This document shows positions 1,479 to 38,432 of a stretch of 41,432 bases of DNA, piece by piece. A program made the position numbers and the translations under genes. Below the pieces are notes generated by a model that saw nothing but the letters and a program-made list of their open reading frames with translations, was not told the origin of the DNA and did not search any database. Origin of the DNA: an uncultured Burkholderiales bacterium (GTDB taxonomy: Bacteria; Pseudomonadota; Gammaproteobacteria; Burkholderiales; Burkholderiaceae_C); NCBI GenBank assembly GCA_903828695.1, contig CAIKNE010000041.1:1-41432 (forward strand), written 5' to 3'. Position 1 is the stretch's first letter. Every line of letters begins with the position of its first letter.

Positions 1479-1847
1479 ATGAAAATATTCAATATATGCA
1501 CTTTATTTGCGTCTTTTTATTTTGCACTATTTACCAGCCTTTCGTTCGCTGATACAAAACCTGCCTATATGGTCTCGGAGATCACTTATCTAGACAAAGA
1601 CAAATATATTAGCCTCTACTCTGTAGAAGCAAAAAAAGCATTTATAGAATTTGATGCGGTGTTTATAGCAAGTACCGATGACAAAATTGTAGTTCGAGGC
1701 GATAGCCCAGGGCATAGAGTTGTTATTGCAAAATTCCCTTCATTAGATAAGGCAAATGCATTTATAGCCTCTGAAAAATATAAAAAATTACGTGAATTAG
1801 GATCTCCGTTTTTCATCAGTAGATCCTATATAGTCGAGGGTAACTAA
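1479..1847 (+). CDS. DUF1330-family protein with signal peptide
   Basis: The preferred start is the ATG at 1479 (122 residues), because it directly opens a signal peptide (MKIFNICTLFASFYFALFTS, cleavage after SFA). A GTG at 1443 would add 12 residues before it. The mature protein has the DUF1330 dimeric alpha/beta-barrel pattern: A-Y-M-V-S-E-I near the start, then I-V-V-R-G-D, then V-V-I-A-K-F-P-S-L-D-K-A-N-A-F and an S-E-K-Y-K-K-L-R helix. DUF1330 proteins are related to small heme- or aromatic-binding monooxygenase folds, but most have no known activity. Export from the cytoplasm is the less usual form. The downstream hairpin at 1907-1937 probably ends this transcript. Confidence 0.7.
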   Translation: MKIFNICTLFASFYFALFTSLSFADTKPAYMVSEITYLDKDKYISLYSVEAKKAFIEFDAVFIASTDDKIVVRGDSPGHRVVIAKFPSLDKANAFIASEKYKKLRELGSPFFISRSYIVEGN

Positions 1848-1906
1848 CCGGGCGTTAAACCCAATTAGACAGAATAATTCGATTACCGTATGTCTACACA
1901 TACGTA

Positions 1907-1937
1907 AACCAGCAAAGTCGTCCTTTGAACTGGTTTT
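1907..1937 (+). terminator. putative rho-independent terminator
   Basis: A hairpin built from AACCAG/CTGGTT (1907-1912 with 1930-1935) and CAAAG/CTTTG (1913-1917 with 1923-1927), with loop TCGTC, a two-base AA bulge and a short T run after it. It lies between the convergent DUF1330 and amidohydrolase genes. A second small hairpin, CGTATGT/ACATACG, sits just upstream at 1887-1904. Confidence 0.45.
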
Positions 1938-1947
1938 CCATTCTGAA

Positions 1948-3129
1948 TCAAGTACCTATTCTTAATAACTTAGAGGCATTACCCCCCAGGATAGCTGCTT
2001 TTTGAGCATCTGAAATAGGAGTTTTCAAGACCTGCTCAACAGGAAACTCTTCCCAGGGTATTGGGCTATCTGTTCCGATCACGACTTGAGAAGACCCAAC
2101 TTGAGCTATTAAATGTCTTAAGCCTTCGGAGGTGAAGACCAATGAATCAAAAAATATTTGGTTCAAATATTCAGTTGGCTTTTTCTTCAGAACCACATCG
2201 GGATTGCAATTAATGGGCGATACGAAACAAGAGTGATCCATTCTAGGAGCGTAGGAACCCAGAAACCCTCCTCCGTGCGCTGCCAGTACCTTTAAATTCG
2301 GGAACTTATCGAATACACCTTCATAAATCAGGTGTTGAAGTGCAATCGTAGTATCCAAAGGATTCCCAATTACATTAGACATCCAACCATTGCCCTTGAA
2401 ACGAGACGACAACTGCGCAGTACCTTGAGGGTGAATAAAAAGCACTGCACCCAGTTCCTCAGCCTTAGCCCAAATTGGATGAAAACGAGGATCAGCATGC
2501 TCCACTCCCGCAACATTGGCTTGAATAGCTACCCCTTTAAAGGCTGGGTTTTTCATTAGCTCAGTTAACTGTTCAACAGCTAAGTCTGGATATTGCGTGG
2601 CAATTGAACCAAAAGCCGCAAAGCGAGTCGGGTATGCACCACACAGATCTGCTAAATTGTCATTGTTGATTCGGCAAATCTCCTTAGCCAGGTCTCGATC
2701 CTTGGCGTACCAAAAGGTATTGACTGACAAAACTTCCATGTCAACGCCTTTAGCGTCCATGTTCTCAATTCGTCGTTGTATAACTTCTGTTGCGCTCACT
2801 GGAATATAGTGCTCAGGCCCACCTTTTACAGCCCCATTAACACTTGTGCCTTTACCAGCCAGTGCTACCGCCTCCGGAAAAAAACAATGTGCATGCGCAT
2901 CGATAACCTTGACTTTTTTACCCTGATACATATAAGGTTTTCGCTTTGTACCTGCTAATGGGTGGCGGTGACTCAAGGAGGGCTCATTTCCCGCATCTTT
3001 CCCCCCCCTATCCCACTGGGGATTCAGTAATGGATTTGTAGTAATCTCTTGCGCATTGCAACAATTACAGAAGTAGATACTGGAGGCACTAGCCCCAAGA
3101 CCTGCCATAAATGATCGTCTAGTCGTCAT
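1948..3129 (-). CDS. Tat-exported amidohydrolase (amidohydrolase_2 / ACMSD-like)
   Basis: A 393-residue metal-dependent hydrolase or decarboxylase of the ACMSD/amidohydrolase_2 family. The N-terminus carries a twin-arginine signal (TTRRSFMAGLGASAS), so the enzyme probably folds in the cytoplasm and acts in the periplasm. Expected metal and catalytic residues are present: D-A-H-A-H (His79, His81), His233 in FIHPQG, His285 in LAAHGGG and Asp344 in GTDSP. A good ribosome binding site (GGGAG) precedes the ATG at 3129. The C-N-C-C-N segment at residues 21-25 could allow lipid attachment or disulfides after export. It is divergent from the NodB, HMGL and CaiB genes and may share their pathway. The substrate is unknown; family members act on small aromatic or heterocyclic carboxylates and lactones. 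Confidence 0.85.
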   Translation of the reverse strand: MTTRRSFMAGLGASASSIYFCNCCNAQEITTNPLLNPQWDRGGKDAGNEPSLSHRHPLAGTKRKPYMYQGKKVKVIDAHAHCFFPEAVALAGKGTSVNGAVKGGPEHYIPVSATEVIQRRIENMDAKGVDMEVLSVNTFWYAKDRDLAKEICRINNDNLADLCGAYPTRFAAFGSIATQYPDLAVEQLTELMKNPAFKGVAIQANVAGVEHADPRFHPIWAKAEELGAVLFIHPQGTAQLSSRFKGNGWMSNVIGNPLDTTIALQHLIYEGVFDKFPNLKVLAAHGGGFLGSYAPRMDHSCFVSPINCNPDVVLKKKPTEYLNQIFFDSLVFTSEGLRHLIAQVGSSQVVIGTDSPIPWEEFPVEQVLKTPISDAQKAAILGGNASKLLRIGT

Positions 3130-34621: not shown

Positions 34622-36223
34622 TCAATCGATTGATTGGGGAGATAACAAATTAAATATTTTCAACTCATCCGAGTCAGATCCATATTGCTTTGAGAGATCG
34701 AATTGAAGGTTCTGCGCTTCTGAGGCTGTTATCAAAAAAAGTAGCTGATCAATTAAAGTCTGAAACTGTTGCGATGCATATTCAGGATGGTCTAGGACAT
34801 TAATTATTAATCCACTGAACTGCGCTTTACCTGCTTGTGACTCCTTATACTCTCTTTCGGCCTCATCCATAATTCGTTGTCGAGAGGAAGTAGAAATGTG
34901 CAAACGTTCAGCTTCCTTGTTAATTTCTAGTAGGCTTTCTTGATTTAGAGTACCTGTTGCAAATATTTTTGCCACCTTCCGTTTCAGTGCCTCTCGATCC
35001 TGTTGCAATTGATCAGTGAAAGCCGAAGCAAGCACGCCAGCTGGTATTGCAAATATACCAACGCCGATCAATGCAACCACAGAGGTCATCATACGTCCAA
35101 GCGGAGTAACTGGCGTCATATCTCCATATCCAACAGAAGATAGAGTAGTCATAGCCCAGTAAATTGACTGGGGAATATTGGTAAACACATCGGGTTGAGC
35201 GTCATGCTCTAGTAAATACCCCAAGCTTGCTGTTAAAAGAATCAAGAGAAATAAAACAAACATCGCAGATAAGATGATTGGTTTTTCGCGCTTTAAAACA
35301 CCCCCGAGCGTTTGGGTAGCTGAGGAGTACCGCGTCAGCTTTAACAGTCGCATGAGTCTAAAGACTCGTAAAAATCTTAGATCAACTTGGTAAGTTATGA
35401 TCGCTTCAAGAATGAAAGGAAGAATAGTAACCAGGTCAATTAGTGCTTGATTGCTTTTTGCATAGCCTAAGCGTTTCCACTTAAACTGATTGAATGCTGG
35501 ATTTTCTGGTGCAACATAAAGTCTGGCTAAATATTCAATTGTAAATATTGTGAAAGTTACAACATCAACCCATTGAAATAAAAGATAAAAAATTTGATGT
35601 ACCGAATTTACGGATTCAATAAGTACACAAATAATTGAAACAGCGACCCAGAAAACAATGAAGTTATCAAAATATATCTGCAATTTTCCTGATTGATCTG
35701 TAGGCTCAAGCAGAGAATATATTTTTTGCCTAAAAGTATTGTTTTTGTTTAATTCAAGAAACTCTCCAACTGCAGGAATCAAGAGTCTCGAGAATTTGAA
35801 CATTCTAAACAATCGGAACAAACGCAGTACCCGAAGTAATTCCACATCAACCGTCATAAATAGGGCTATATAAAACGGCGCTATTGCAACTAGATCTACC
35901 ACCGCGTAAATACCAACTAGATGTCTTAGTCTTGGATACTTGAAGTTTGCGTAGTCAGGGTTATTTGGCGCTGTAAACCATCTAAACAAATACTCAACAG
36001 TAAAAATACCAACAGCAATAATATCAAAAACATGCAATTCACCCAGATAAAGAGCTTGAACCTCAGGAATGTGCTCTAAGACAATTGAAAATACACTTAC
36101 TACGATTAACCAAGCTATTGCTTTTTCCACTAACTTAGCAAATCCATTTGTATTTGCAGTATCAAAAAACCAGTAATAAAGCATTGAACAGACACTTAAT
36201 GGGGAGTTAAACTGTTGTGACAT
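34622..36223 (-). CDS. double-voltage-sensor potassium channel, paralog A
   Basis: A 533-residue inner-membrane channel. Sensor 1 (about 30-150) ends in an S4 with Arg131, 134, 137, 140, Lys143 and Arg146, one charge every third residue. Sensor 2 (about 185-300) ends in another S4 with Arg283, 286, 289, 292, Lys295 and Arg298. Only one pore follows: S5, then T-L-S-S-V-G-Y-G-D (VGYGD at 364-368) and S6 with A-I-P-A-G-V. Residues about 165-200 (F-R-Q-K-I-Y-S-L-L-E-P) look like the N-terminus of an ordinary bacterial Kv channel, so sensor 1 appears fused in front. The remaining cytoplasmic tail of about 130 residues is helical. It lies 8 bases after paralog B on the same strand, so the two are co-expressed and may form mixed tetramers. 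Confidence 0.88.
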   Translation of the reverse strand: MSQQFNSPLSVCSMLYYWFFDTANTNGFAKLVEKAIAWLIVVSVFSIVLEHIPEVQALYLGELHVFDIIAVGIFTVEYLFRWFTAPNNPDYANFKYPRLRHLVGIYAVVDLVAIAPFYIALFMTVDVELLRVLRLFRLFRMFKFSRLLIPAVGEFLELNKNNTFRQKIYSLLEPTDQSGKLQIYFDNFIVFWVAVSIICVLIESVNSVHQIFYLLFQWVDVVTFTIFTIEYLARLYVAPENPAFNQFKWKRLGYAKSNQALIDLVTILPFILEAIITYQVDLRFLRVFRLMRLLKLTRYSSATQTLGGVLKREKPIILSAMFVLFLLILLTASLGYLLEHDAQPDVFTNIPQSIYWAMTTLSSVGYGDMTPVTPLGRMMTSVVALIGVGIFAIPAGVLASAFTDQLQQDREALKRKVAKIFATGTLNQESLLEINKEAERLHISTSSRQRIMDEAEREYKESQAGKAQFSGLIINVLDHPEYASQQFQTLIDQLLFLITASEAQNLQFDLSKQYGSDSDELKIFNLLSPQSID

Positions 36224-36231
36224 ATCAATTC

Positions 36232-37836
36232 TTATTTCACAACAGTTTTGGAAAGAACATCACATATGTTAATTGCCTGCCGATTTGGAGGAAGAATTTC
36301 AGTCAATTTCTTAACCAACAAATCATGGCCTAAAACTTTGTGCAACAACTTCAATTGCGCAACTATGATGCCGAATTGATCAGCCGTGTATGTGGGATGC
36401 TTTTTAACATCTAACATCAAATGCCCGTACTGAACCAATTGAGCTTCACGATCCCTTAGGTCCTGCTTAGCTTCTATCAAAATCTTATGAAATTGCTCGG
36501 TAGTCAAATGTAGGCGCTCGGATTCAGCCATGATTGACTCATGGGAAGATTGGTCAAGCTCTCCATTTTTGTAAGCATCGACTATTTTTCTTCGAAATTC
36601 TTCGCGATCTAATTTAAGTTGATCCGTAAAGGCTGAGGCTAGCAAACCTGAGGGGATGGCAAAAATACCAATGCCTGCTAAAGCAGTCATCACAGTTAGC
36701 ATGCGACCCAGTGTAGTGACAGGAGAAATATCACCGTAGCCAACACTTGCAAGTGTGATGATTGCCCAGTAAAGTGAAACAGGAATATTCGGGTATTTAT
36801 CTGGCTGAGCATCGTGTTCGAACAAGTAACCAAGGCTAGCGGTTAAAACAACGAGAAGCATCATGACGAATATGGCTGCAGCCATAACAGGCCACTCCCG
36901 CTTAAAAACCTTGAACAATGTTTGCGTTGCGGAGTTATACCTTGTTAATTTAAGCATTCGCATCAGTCTAAAGACACGCAAAAAACGTAAATCAAGATTG
37001 AACGGGAGAAAATGCTCAAATATAAAAGGTAATATCGTGACCAAATCAATCAACGCCTGACCAGACACAACATGTGACCAACGGGGCCATTTAATATCTT
37101 TAAAAATAGGCTTTTCTGGTGCACTGTAGATTCTGGCAATGTATTCAAGGGTGAAAATTGTAAAAGCGGCTACATCAATCCAATGAAACTGATCAGCAAA
37201 CAAGCGATGTACAGAATCTACTGACTCGATGACCACGCAAAATATTGACAATGCAATCCATGAAACGATGAAATTATCAACAAAATAATGAAGCCGACCT
37301 GAATGTCCCGACGGCTCCATGAGAGCAAATATTTTTTGTCGAAAGCTTCTGTCTTGATTCAAGCGTTTGAACTCGACCCATGCAGGAAGAATTTGACGTG
37401 AAAATTTAAGCATCCTCAACAAACGCAAGAGCCTTAGCACGCGCAGCATCTCCACATCAACATTTATGAACTGAGCGAAGTAAAAGGGAGCAATAGCAAT
37501 AAAGTCCACCAGCGCATAAAAACTCACTAAATATCTTAATCGCGGATATTGATATTCTTTGAAGGCTTCGTTACTTTTGGCGGTATAAACACGCAATATG
37601 TACTCTATGGTGAAGACTAAAGTGCTTATTAAATTTAAACCATCTAAAGTCCCTTTATATTGAATCTCAAGTTCTGGAATATGCTCAATCATCACTGCCA
37701 CAATACTTATGATGATAATAAGAGCAATTGATTTCTCAACTTGACGACCATATCCTTGGCTTTGGCGTGTATCAAAAAGCCATGAATACAATAGTTCAGA
37801 GAGTTTCCATTTTGGATGGTCGTTGAGTTTGGGCAT
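36232..37836 (-). CDS. double-voltage-sensor potassium channel, paralog B
   Basis: A 534-residue paralog of the next gene with the same sensor-sensor-pore order. S4-1 has Arg132, 135, 138, 141, Lys144, Arg147; S4-2 has Arg284, 287, 290, 293, Lys296, Arg299. The filter is T-L-A-S-V-G-Y-G-D (VGYGD at 365-369), selective for K+ by motif. S2 segments carry F-T-I-E-Y and F-T-L-E-Y with acidic partners for the gating charges; S3 has D-F-I-A-I-A-P and D-L-V-T-I-L-P. The tail keeps the paralog's G-x-L-x-x-x-S...S-E-R-L-H-x-T pattern but differs at the very end. It is the first of the two channel genes; the BLUF gene lies 146 bases upstream on the same strand. Confidence 0.88.
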   Translation of the reverse strand: MPKLNDHPKWKLSELLYSWLFDTRQSQGYGRQVEKSIALIIIISIVAVMIEHIPELEIQYKGTLDGLNLISTLVFTIEYILRVYTAKSNEAFKEYQYPRLRYLVSFYALVDFIAIAPFYFAQFINVDVEMLRVLRLLRLLRMLKFSRQILPAWVEFKRLNQDRSFRQKIFALMEPSGHSGRLHYFVDNFIVSWIALSIFCVVIESVDSVHRLFADQFHWIDVAAFTIFTLEYIARIYSAPEKPIFKDIKWPRWSHVVSGQALIDLVTILPFIFEHFLPFNLDLRFLRVFRLMRMLKLTRYNSATQTLFKVFKREWPVMAAAIFVMMLLVVLTASLGYLFEHDAQPDKYPNIPVSLYWAIITLASVGYGDISPVTTLGRMLTVMTALAGIGIFAIPSGLLASAFTDQLKLDREEFRRKIVDAYKNGELDQSSHESIMAESERLHLTTEQFHKILIEAKQDLRDREAQLVQYGHLMLDVKKHPTYTADQFGIIVAQLKLLHKVLGHDLLVKKLTEILPPNRQAINICDVLSKTVVK

Positions 37837-37982: not shown

Positions 37983-38396
37983 TTATATTCTTGTCCAAAT
38001 TTTCTTGATCATTTGATAAGTTTCGATATCCACATCATTTAAACCGTTCATTATTTCTGAAAACTGGGGGAATTGATGAGCAAACTCCTCAGCATTGAAT
38101 AACTTCATAGACCACTCTGGAAAACGACGCTGTTTAATATTTGATACCCCTAGTAGATTAATATTTTGATGTCTTTTGTCATTTTGAATTCTCTTAAATG
38201 TTTCCTCAACATCAGCTCTGTGGCCCTCCAGTATTTGACCGAAATATCCATAATCAAAGAAAAGTATTCCCGTAATATCCTTAGACTTATTCATTACTAA
38301 TGCGGCATCAGTAATTTGTGATAAGTTCGACAAATTAAGTTCCTTTGATATTGCGCTGAAGTACTTTAATTCAATTAAGTCTTTATTTCGATCCAT
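37983..38396 (-). CDS. short BLUF-domain blue-light receptor
   Basis: A 137-residue BLUF protein (start ATG 38396; an ATG at 38432 would add a 12-residue basic lead with no ribosome binding site). All flavin-switch residues are present by motif: Tyr12, Asn36 in V-M-N-K-S-K-D-I-T-G-I-L, Gln54 in Y-F-G-Q-I-L-E-G, and Trp95 and Met97 in R-R-F-P-E-W-S-M. BLUF domains bind FAD and respond to blue light by a Tyr-Gln hydrogen-bond change. There is no attached effector domain, only a helical C-terminal cap of about 35 residues, so it should signal by protein contacts as PixD-type proteins do. It sits upstream of the double-sensor channels on the same strand, which suggests but does not prove a common role. 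Confidence 0.9.
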   Translation of the reverse strand: MDRNKDLIELKYFSAISKELNLSNLSQITDAALVMNKSKDITGILFFDYGYFGQILEGHRADVEETFKRIQNDKRHQNINLLGVSNIKQRRFPEWSMKLFNAEEFAHQFPQFSEIMNGLNDVDIETYQMIKKIWTRI

Positions 38397-38432
38397 GATT
38401 TTCTTTCGAATTTTGAATTTACACCTCAGCAT

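Follow-up and report, generated by a model that had tools for sequence, protein, structure and literature searches.

Tandem genes for K+-type channels with two voltage-sensor domains ahead of a single pore in an uncultured Burkholderiales bacterium

How a voltage sensor is coupled to a pore is a long-standing question that has been studied mostly in channels with one sensor per pore subunit, the rule among Kv-like channels with six transmembrane helices (6TM). Two-pore channels (TPCs) have two sensors per chain, arranged on a ground plan of voltage-sensor domain (VSD)-pore-VSD-pore, and in Hv1 and the voltage-sensing phosphatases a VSD without a pore of its own serves as a module. Eukaryotes also have 6TM-6TM tandem channels (PMC7576140). 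Here we analyze two adjacent genes, P2 and P1, from an uncultured Burkholderiales bacterium (GenBank assembly GCA_903828695.1, contig CAIKNE010000041.1, positions 1 to 41,432; this whole stretch of 41,432 nucleotides is the window). Their products depart from the one-sensor rule, having two sensors, ten membrane helices and one K+-type pore in the order VSD1-VSD2-pore. We think it probable that both are Kv-like channels in which VSD1 works as a second sensor, biasing the gating of VSD2 and the pore through the linker that joins the two sensors.

Both genes lie on the minus strand and read in the same direction. P2, the first of the pair, is an open reading frame (ORF) of 534 amino acids (36232..37836), and P1, of 533 amino acids (34622..36223), follows after a gap of 8 bases; the two are probably co-transcribed. 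The proteins are 51% identical (alignment A1) and have the same layout: S1-S4, S1'-S4', S5-pore-S6 with the filter SVGYGD, and C-terminal helices. In each, Pfam matches Ion_trans over two stretches and Ion_trans_2 over a single pore, above the curated thresholds (Ion_trans 155.5 and 145.2 bits, threshold 25; Ion_trans_2 61.5 and 54.8 bits, threshold 22.5). By comparison, the NCBIfam model NF040645 (K_channel_Meth) scores 46.4 and 50.8 bits for the two proteins, below its cut-off of 300. Each S4 carries six positive charges at a spacing of three. In the first sensor (S4-1) these are R132, R135, R138, R141, K144 and R147 of P2 (37393..37455, placed by alignment and conservation) and R131, R134, R137, R140, K143 and R146 of P1; in the second (S4-2) they run from R284 to R299 in P2 (36937..36990, on the same grounds) and are R283, R286, R289, R292, K295 and R298 in P1. 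The signature SVGYGD, read directly from the sequence, occurs once in each protein (36730..36747 in P2, 35120..35137 in P1), and suggests that both channels are selective for K+.

An AlphaFold2 monomer model of P2, built on an alignment of 77 rows described below, has a pLDDT of 82.3 and a pTM of 0.71. It contains ten membrane helices, eight of which are sensor helices ahead of S5. Behind a pre-S1 segment, VSD1 (residues 30-150; 37387..37749) comprises S1 at residues 30-51, S2 at 61-84, S3 at 106-123 and S4 at 128-159, with block confidences of 83-93; the S4-1 helix is long, reaching residue 159. The linker and pre-S1' helix (residues 151-179; 37300..37386), with the helix at 165-173, lead into VSD2 (residues 180-301; 36934..37299), composed of S1' at 180-204, S2' at 207-241, S3' at 259-276 and S4' at 283-301. 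Residues 303-412 (36601..36930), the part in which Pfam finds Ion_trans_2, hold the S4-S5 helix (303-313), S5 (315-340), the pore helix (351-363), the filter and the start of S6 (375-423). The end of S6 and the C-terminal helical region occupy 36235..36600, with helices running to residue 533. The S4-S5 helix of about 11 residues can be set beside the 11.1 +/- 2.2 residues that PMC7576140 gives for Kv-like channels. This long S4-S5 linker, together with the K+-type filter, suggests a Kv-type tetramer from what is known of the family. The AlphaFold2 model of P1, built on four sequences, was poor (pLDDT 61.6) and was not used. Parts of P1 were instead placed by alignment A1 to P2: VSD1 (residues 29-149) at 35777..36139, the linker with pre-S1' at 35690..35776 and VSD2 at 35324..35689; S4-S5, S5, the pore and the start of S6 lie at 34991..35320, with Ion_trans_2 at residues 324-403. 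The first-pass annotation of this DNA had read in each protein two S1-S4 modules with six spaced S4 charges and a single VGYGD pore. As checks it had proposed a domain search for repeated ion-transport N-terminal halves, structure modelling, in which fewer than eight sensor helices before S5 would count against it, and a survey of homologs for the same order. The residues, the two Ion_trans stretches with their single Ion_trans_2, the P2 model and the relatives considered next all bear its reading out.

Using the VSD1-linker-VSD2 region as query against 84,980 species genomes, we obtained 379 relatives and worked with the best 80 loci. From these and locus L090, excluding loci of the window's own genome, we kept 75 full-length ORFs with the same order (profile start at or before 20, end at or beyond 500, more than 440 positions; a few reach a contig end). 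Alignment A3 combines 74 of them with P1, P2 and one paralogue from the window's genome; its 77 rows are not independent, several sharing one genome or contig. The six charges of S4-1 are retained in 75, 77, 77, 77, 77 and 77 of these rows and those of S4-2 in 77, 77, 77, 77, 77 and 76, a pattern not due to chance. The predicted counter-charges are kept just as strictly: E51, E78 and D111 of VSD1 in 77/77 rows each, E204 of VSD2 in 76/77, and E231 and D264 in 77/77. Four linker residues (A152, F156, N160 and R166 in P2 numbering) are invariant. Mean column entropy is 1.36 in VSD1, 1.34 in the linker, 1.25 in VSD2 and 0.65 in the pore; the N-terminus (2.21) and C-terminus (2.22) are the least conserved parts. 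Against the closest relative, L009, the dN/dS values for P2 and P1 are 0.047 and 0.051 in VSD1, 0.035 and 0.096 in the linker, and 0.013 and 0.024 in VSD2, and the pore has a value of 0, without any non-synonymous change; against L010 most synonymous counts were saturated. Both sensors, VSD1 included, are under purifying selection.

The double-sensor genes are concentrated in the genus of the window's genome. That genome (G000, a 161-contig draft included in every sample count) has four: P1, P2, one on contig C5 and one on C33 that is cut by the contig end. The N-terminal part of the C33 gene is probably the fragment on C145; we rejected this fragment as a fifth copy and counted four genes because it overlaps the C33 copy, with one residue different by eye. 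Within the genus, a match at 1e-40 occurs in 59 of 61 genomes and a full-length one, starting at profile position 16 at the latest and reaching at least 531, in 49 of 61; the full-length matches number 69. A few listed genus matches contain in-frame stops (G862:C9:389777-391339 and two places on G873:C20), and open frames of 523-564 amino acids suggest that these stops lie near the match ends. Beyond the genus, the profile surveys covered Pseudomonadota, with other phyla covered by the first scan only. The family sample gave full-length matches in 2 of 100 genomes, both within the genus. At 1e-100, 5 of 399 order genomes matched: G000, G684, G474 and G828, each with a double-sensor gene, and G712, with only a gene lacking VSD1. 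At the same cut-off the class sample yielded 1 of 321, G000 itself. In the phylum sample 23 of 398 genomes matched at 1e-65; only in G000 and G474 did the match start before position 140, and the remaining 21 match from 150-167 on, in open frames of 318-402 amino acids. The order, class and phylum counts are lower bounds, because only the best three or four candidates per genome were scored and the strict cut-offs miss divergent double-sensor proteins.

Named relatives are mostly Burkholderiales (Limnohabitans, Polynucleobacter, Polaromonas, Rhodoferax, Paucibacter and unnamed Comamonadaceae bins). Two further bins, one labelled Alphaproteobacteria (L039) and the other Methylococcaceae (L070), may be misbinned. 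A divergent double-sensor channel, annotated ‘ion transporter’, is plasmid-borne in the alphaproteobacterium Gemmobacter aquarius (WP_159082572.1; L154, 1216-2691). It aligns in a single piece with residues 64-408 of P2 at 36% identity and has a similar linker, but some S4 charges are absent in both of its sensors. With this protein as query, 65 of 398 phylum genomes matched at 1e-30, and again only G000 and G474 matched well into VSD1; a match in G263 that starts in the VSD1 region was discarded, as it runs through a stop and on into a different, unrelated gene upstream. No match covered 80% of P2 among the 92 plasmid and 11 phage records with a match, and a query of VSD1 plus linker matched 5 plasmid records, none at 80% coverage.

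Single-sensor relatives bear on where VSD1 came from. The 318-402-residue Kv-like channels of the phylum sample begin to match the profile just before S1'. Closer to P1 and P2 stands a family of 13 loci (L111, L113, L114, L128-L136 and L139; ORFs of 392-451 amino acids, stop to stop) hosted by the same genus and by another Burkholderiales family. Its members share pre-S1', VSD2, the pore and the C-terminus with P1 and P2 but are without VSD1. Three aligned examples start in a stretch that matches the end of S4-1, and the motif N(K/R)G(R/K)(T/S)xRQK, which resembles the double-sensor linker, is present in 10 of the 13 loci (L111, L134 and L136 have no pattern match). In a phylogeny of 58 core regions (from VSD2 to S6), which includes 11 of the 13 loci and for which no root was inferred, ten of these proteins group in a starred clade (97/88) next to that of the double-sensor proteins (98/93). 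The long-branched L111 is placed inside the double-sensor clade; a single clade of all double-sensor rows is not rejected by the AU test (p 0.213). On a tree of 76 individual sensors (27 double-sensor proteins, thinned from 77, and 22 single sensors), built from few columns with a quick method, one branch sets off the VSD1s (support 98) and another the VSD2s (99), and VSD2 groups with some single-sensor channels apart from VSD1 (87, not starred). The separation of VSD1s from VSD2s led us to reject a recent tandem duplication of VSD2. Since the sister family shares the core and C-terminus, VSD1 is either an added module or one that the sister lost, and gain is favoured because single-sensor channels outside both groups also lack VSD1. 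The first-pass annotation had taken sensor 2 plus pore for a complete Kv-like channel and sensor 1 for an addition to it. Homology supports both parts of this reading, and on the second the trees do not strictly separate gain from loss.

A second kind of single-sensor gene accompanies the double-sensor genes of some relatives. At 25 loci (21 within the best 80, some from one contig) we found a pair of overlapping single-sensor channel ORFs, stop to stop, of about 305 and 330 residues with the filters SGYGN and SGWGN (for example, L064 6665-7582 and 7548-8540; L137 3093-4010 and 3976-4974). The pair lies directly downstream of the double-sensor gene or its cut end at 18 of the 25 loci and starts the locus, with the upstream side outside the sequence, at 6; L138 has no double-sensor gene directly upstream. 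The pore loops, TITSGYGN and TI(I/V)SGWGN, are one residue shorter than the neighbour's TLASVGYGD, and one copy (L023) has AGWGG in its filter region. In the examples placed on the core tree (L064, L074, L076 and L085) the double-sensor neighbour belongs to the L003 type and not to that of the window. The pair was not found in G000, where both companions match only double-sensor genes and fragments at 29-41% identity. This arrangement suggests, without proving it, that double-sensor subunits can take part in heteromers.

Several other genes stand near the double-sensor channels. In G684 (L110) the gene just upstream of a double-sensor gene (1486-3075) encodes a single-sensor channel whose filter, TVGYGD, is normal (42-1007), perhaps an older form of the neighbourhood. 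Some clusters also contain, on the opposite strand, a channel of a third type, about 350 residues long, which has the filter TTTGYGD and a long insert between S5 and pore (L013 2770-3813, L064 9427-10476, also L004 and L006); similar genes occur elsewhere in G000. In the window, a gene for a BLUF blue-light sensor (37983-38432, minus strand; Pfam 96 bits) lies upstream of P2. It is also found beside the same P2-P1 pair in L009 (89% identity), with no match in L010.

Altogether, these data are best explained by a model in which P1 and P2 are subunits of voltage-gated K+-type channels, each consisting of a Kv-like core (pre-S1', S1'-S4', the S4-S5 linker and S5-P-S6) and an extra, complete sensor at the N-terminus. 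Four subunits would form one pore with eight sensors. VSD2 would gate the pore in the usual Kv manner through the S4-S5 linker. VSD1 would itself move with voltage, since a sensor retained only as a passive spacer would be expected to lose its six charges and three counter-charges. Its influence would run through S4-1, the linker and pre-S1', as together they make up the covalent path and contain invariant residues. By biasing VSD2 along this path, VSD1 could set the voltage range or the steepness of opening; the result would probably be a two-step or steeper response serving K+ efflux or control of the membrane potential, and membrane-potential or K+ control is our guess at the physiological role. 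A more elaborate form, with eight working sensors, two in series per subunit, on one K+ pore, and heteromers with the SGYGN and SGWGN subunits in relatives, we put forward only tentatively. Several observations count against a gating role for VSD1 or weaken its basis. S4-1 is overall less conserved than S4-2 (entropy 0.78 vs 0.36 in A3), and in P1 the linker is under weaker constraint than the sensors (dN/dS of 0.096 with L009 as reference and of 0.185, from few changes, with L010). Confidence in the P2 model is uneven between S4-S5 and S6 (blocks of 60-88). The absence of VSD1 from the sister family means that the core can work without it, and the partial S4 charges of the Gemmobacter protein mean that VSD1 may not sense voltage in some members.

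Some of the same facts would suit a VSD1 that is a module for membrane assembly or targeting, used in P1-P2 or other heteromers or in partner binding, and that does not drive gating. Paralogous channel genes often adjoin, as P2 and P1 do here, in L009 and in L010; the companion pair directly follows the double-sensor gene at most of its loci; the core occurs without VSD1; and S4-1, its charges aside, is less conserved than S4-2. The almost invariant charges and counter-charges of VSD1 would be superfluous in a passive module, however, and we regard this explanation as unlikely. Isolated VSDs can conduct protons, as in Hv1, and VSD1 could in principle be a separate permeation path, an Hv1-like proton channel or a gating-pore leak, fused to a K+ channel. 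The arginine ladder in S4 of Hv1 includes a tryptophan, which S4-1 of P1 and P2 is without; its charges are replaced only at R132, in 2 of 77 rows, and Hv1 is absent from the 40 solved-structure matches of VSD1, so that a permeation path of this kind seems improbable. Removal of the first pore from the TPC ground plan would yield the order seen here, but P1 and P2 have only about 30 residues between S4-1 and S1', without a remnant of S5-P-S6, and some of these residues do not vary across 77 proteins. The survey rows, from searches not tuned to reveal a first pore, included no relative that has one. Descent from a decayed two-pore channel is highly improbable, and we rejected it. Finally, in a draft of 161 contigs an error of assembly or annotation might have joined two separate genes. 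The same order runs without a stop through the 75 ORFs outside the window's genome and occurs in the single-contig genomes G906 and G080; the relatives' ORFs rule such an artefact out, and we give it practically no weight. A second sensor that biases VSD2 and the pore remains the explanation we favor.

A natural subunit with two sensors and a sister family without the first one together offer a ready test of how extra gating charge affects the steepness and range of opening, with the sister serving as a natural control for VSD1. Our findings suggest that a sensor can be added at the N-terminus of a Kv core with all its charges kept. This is relevant to how the superfamily has evolved by modules, and it gives channel design a starting point for changing the response to voltage.

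The comparison with solved and described channels places P1 and P2 close to the Kv family in their core and apart from it in their layout. In sequence searches of the PDB, no chain spanned both sensors among the matches listed (60 of 236 for P1, 60 of 70 for the profile); the best of those listed were Kv4 and KCNQ, then Kv2, Kv1 and Shaker, over VSD2 and the pore. The best 50 of 730 Foldseek matches in the PDB are Kv and KCNQ channels, with query-normalised TM-scores of 0.24-0.34. VSD1 of P2 alone, without VSD2, matched 40 solved chains of Kv4, KCNQ, Nav and NaChBac types (E down to 5e-5). The order VSD-VSD-pore was in none of the titles and abstract openings listed from the open-access literature, with most subscription papers and preprints outside this scope, and we provisionally regard the layout as undescribed, in agreement with the first-pass annotation. 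Kv channels (Kv4.2/4.3, KCNQ, Kv1, Kv2 and Shaker) align with P1 and P2 over VSD2, S4-S5 and the pore at 15-27% identity in the listed rows, and they have in common a K+-type filter and a charged S4, but they have one sensor per subunit and P1 and P2 have two. Single-sensor bacterial Kv-like channels (for example L101-L108) share pre-S1', VSD2 and the pore, without VSD1. TPCs likewise have two sensors per chain, but a pore follows each, whereas P1 and P2 have one Ion_trans_2 pore. The 6TM-6TM tandem channels also duplicate sensor modules within one Kv-like chain, but they have two pores, in contrast to the 4TM-6TM plan with one pore seen here. Hv1 is a VSD alone, without a pore domain; in P1 and P2 such a module precedes a full K+-type channel.

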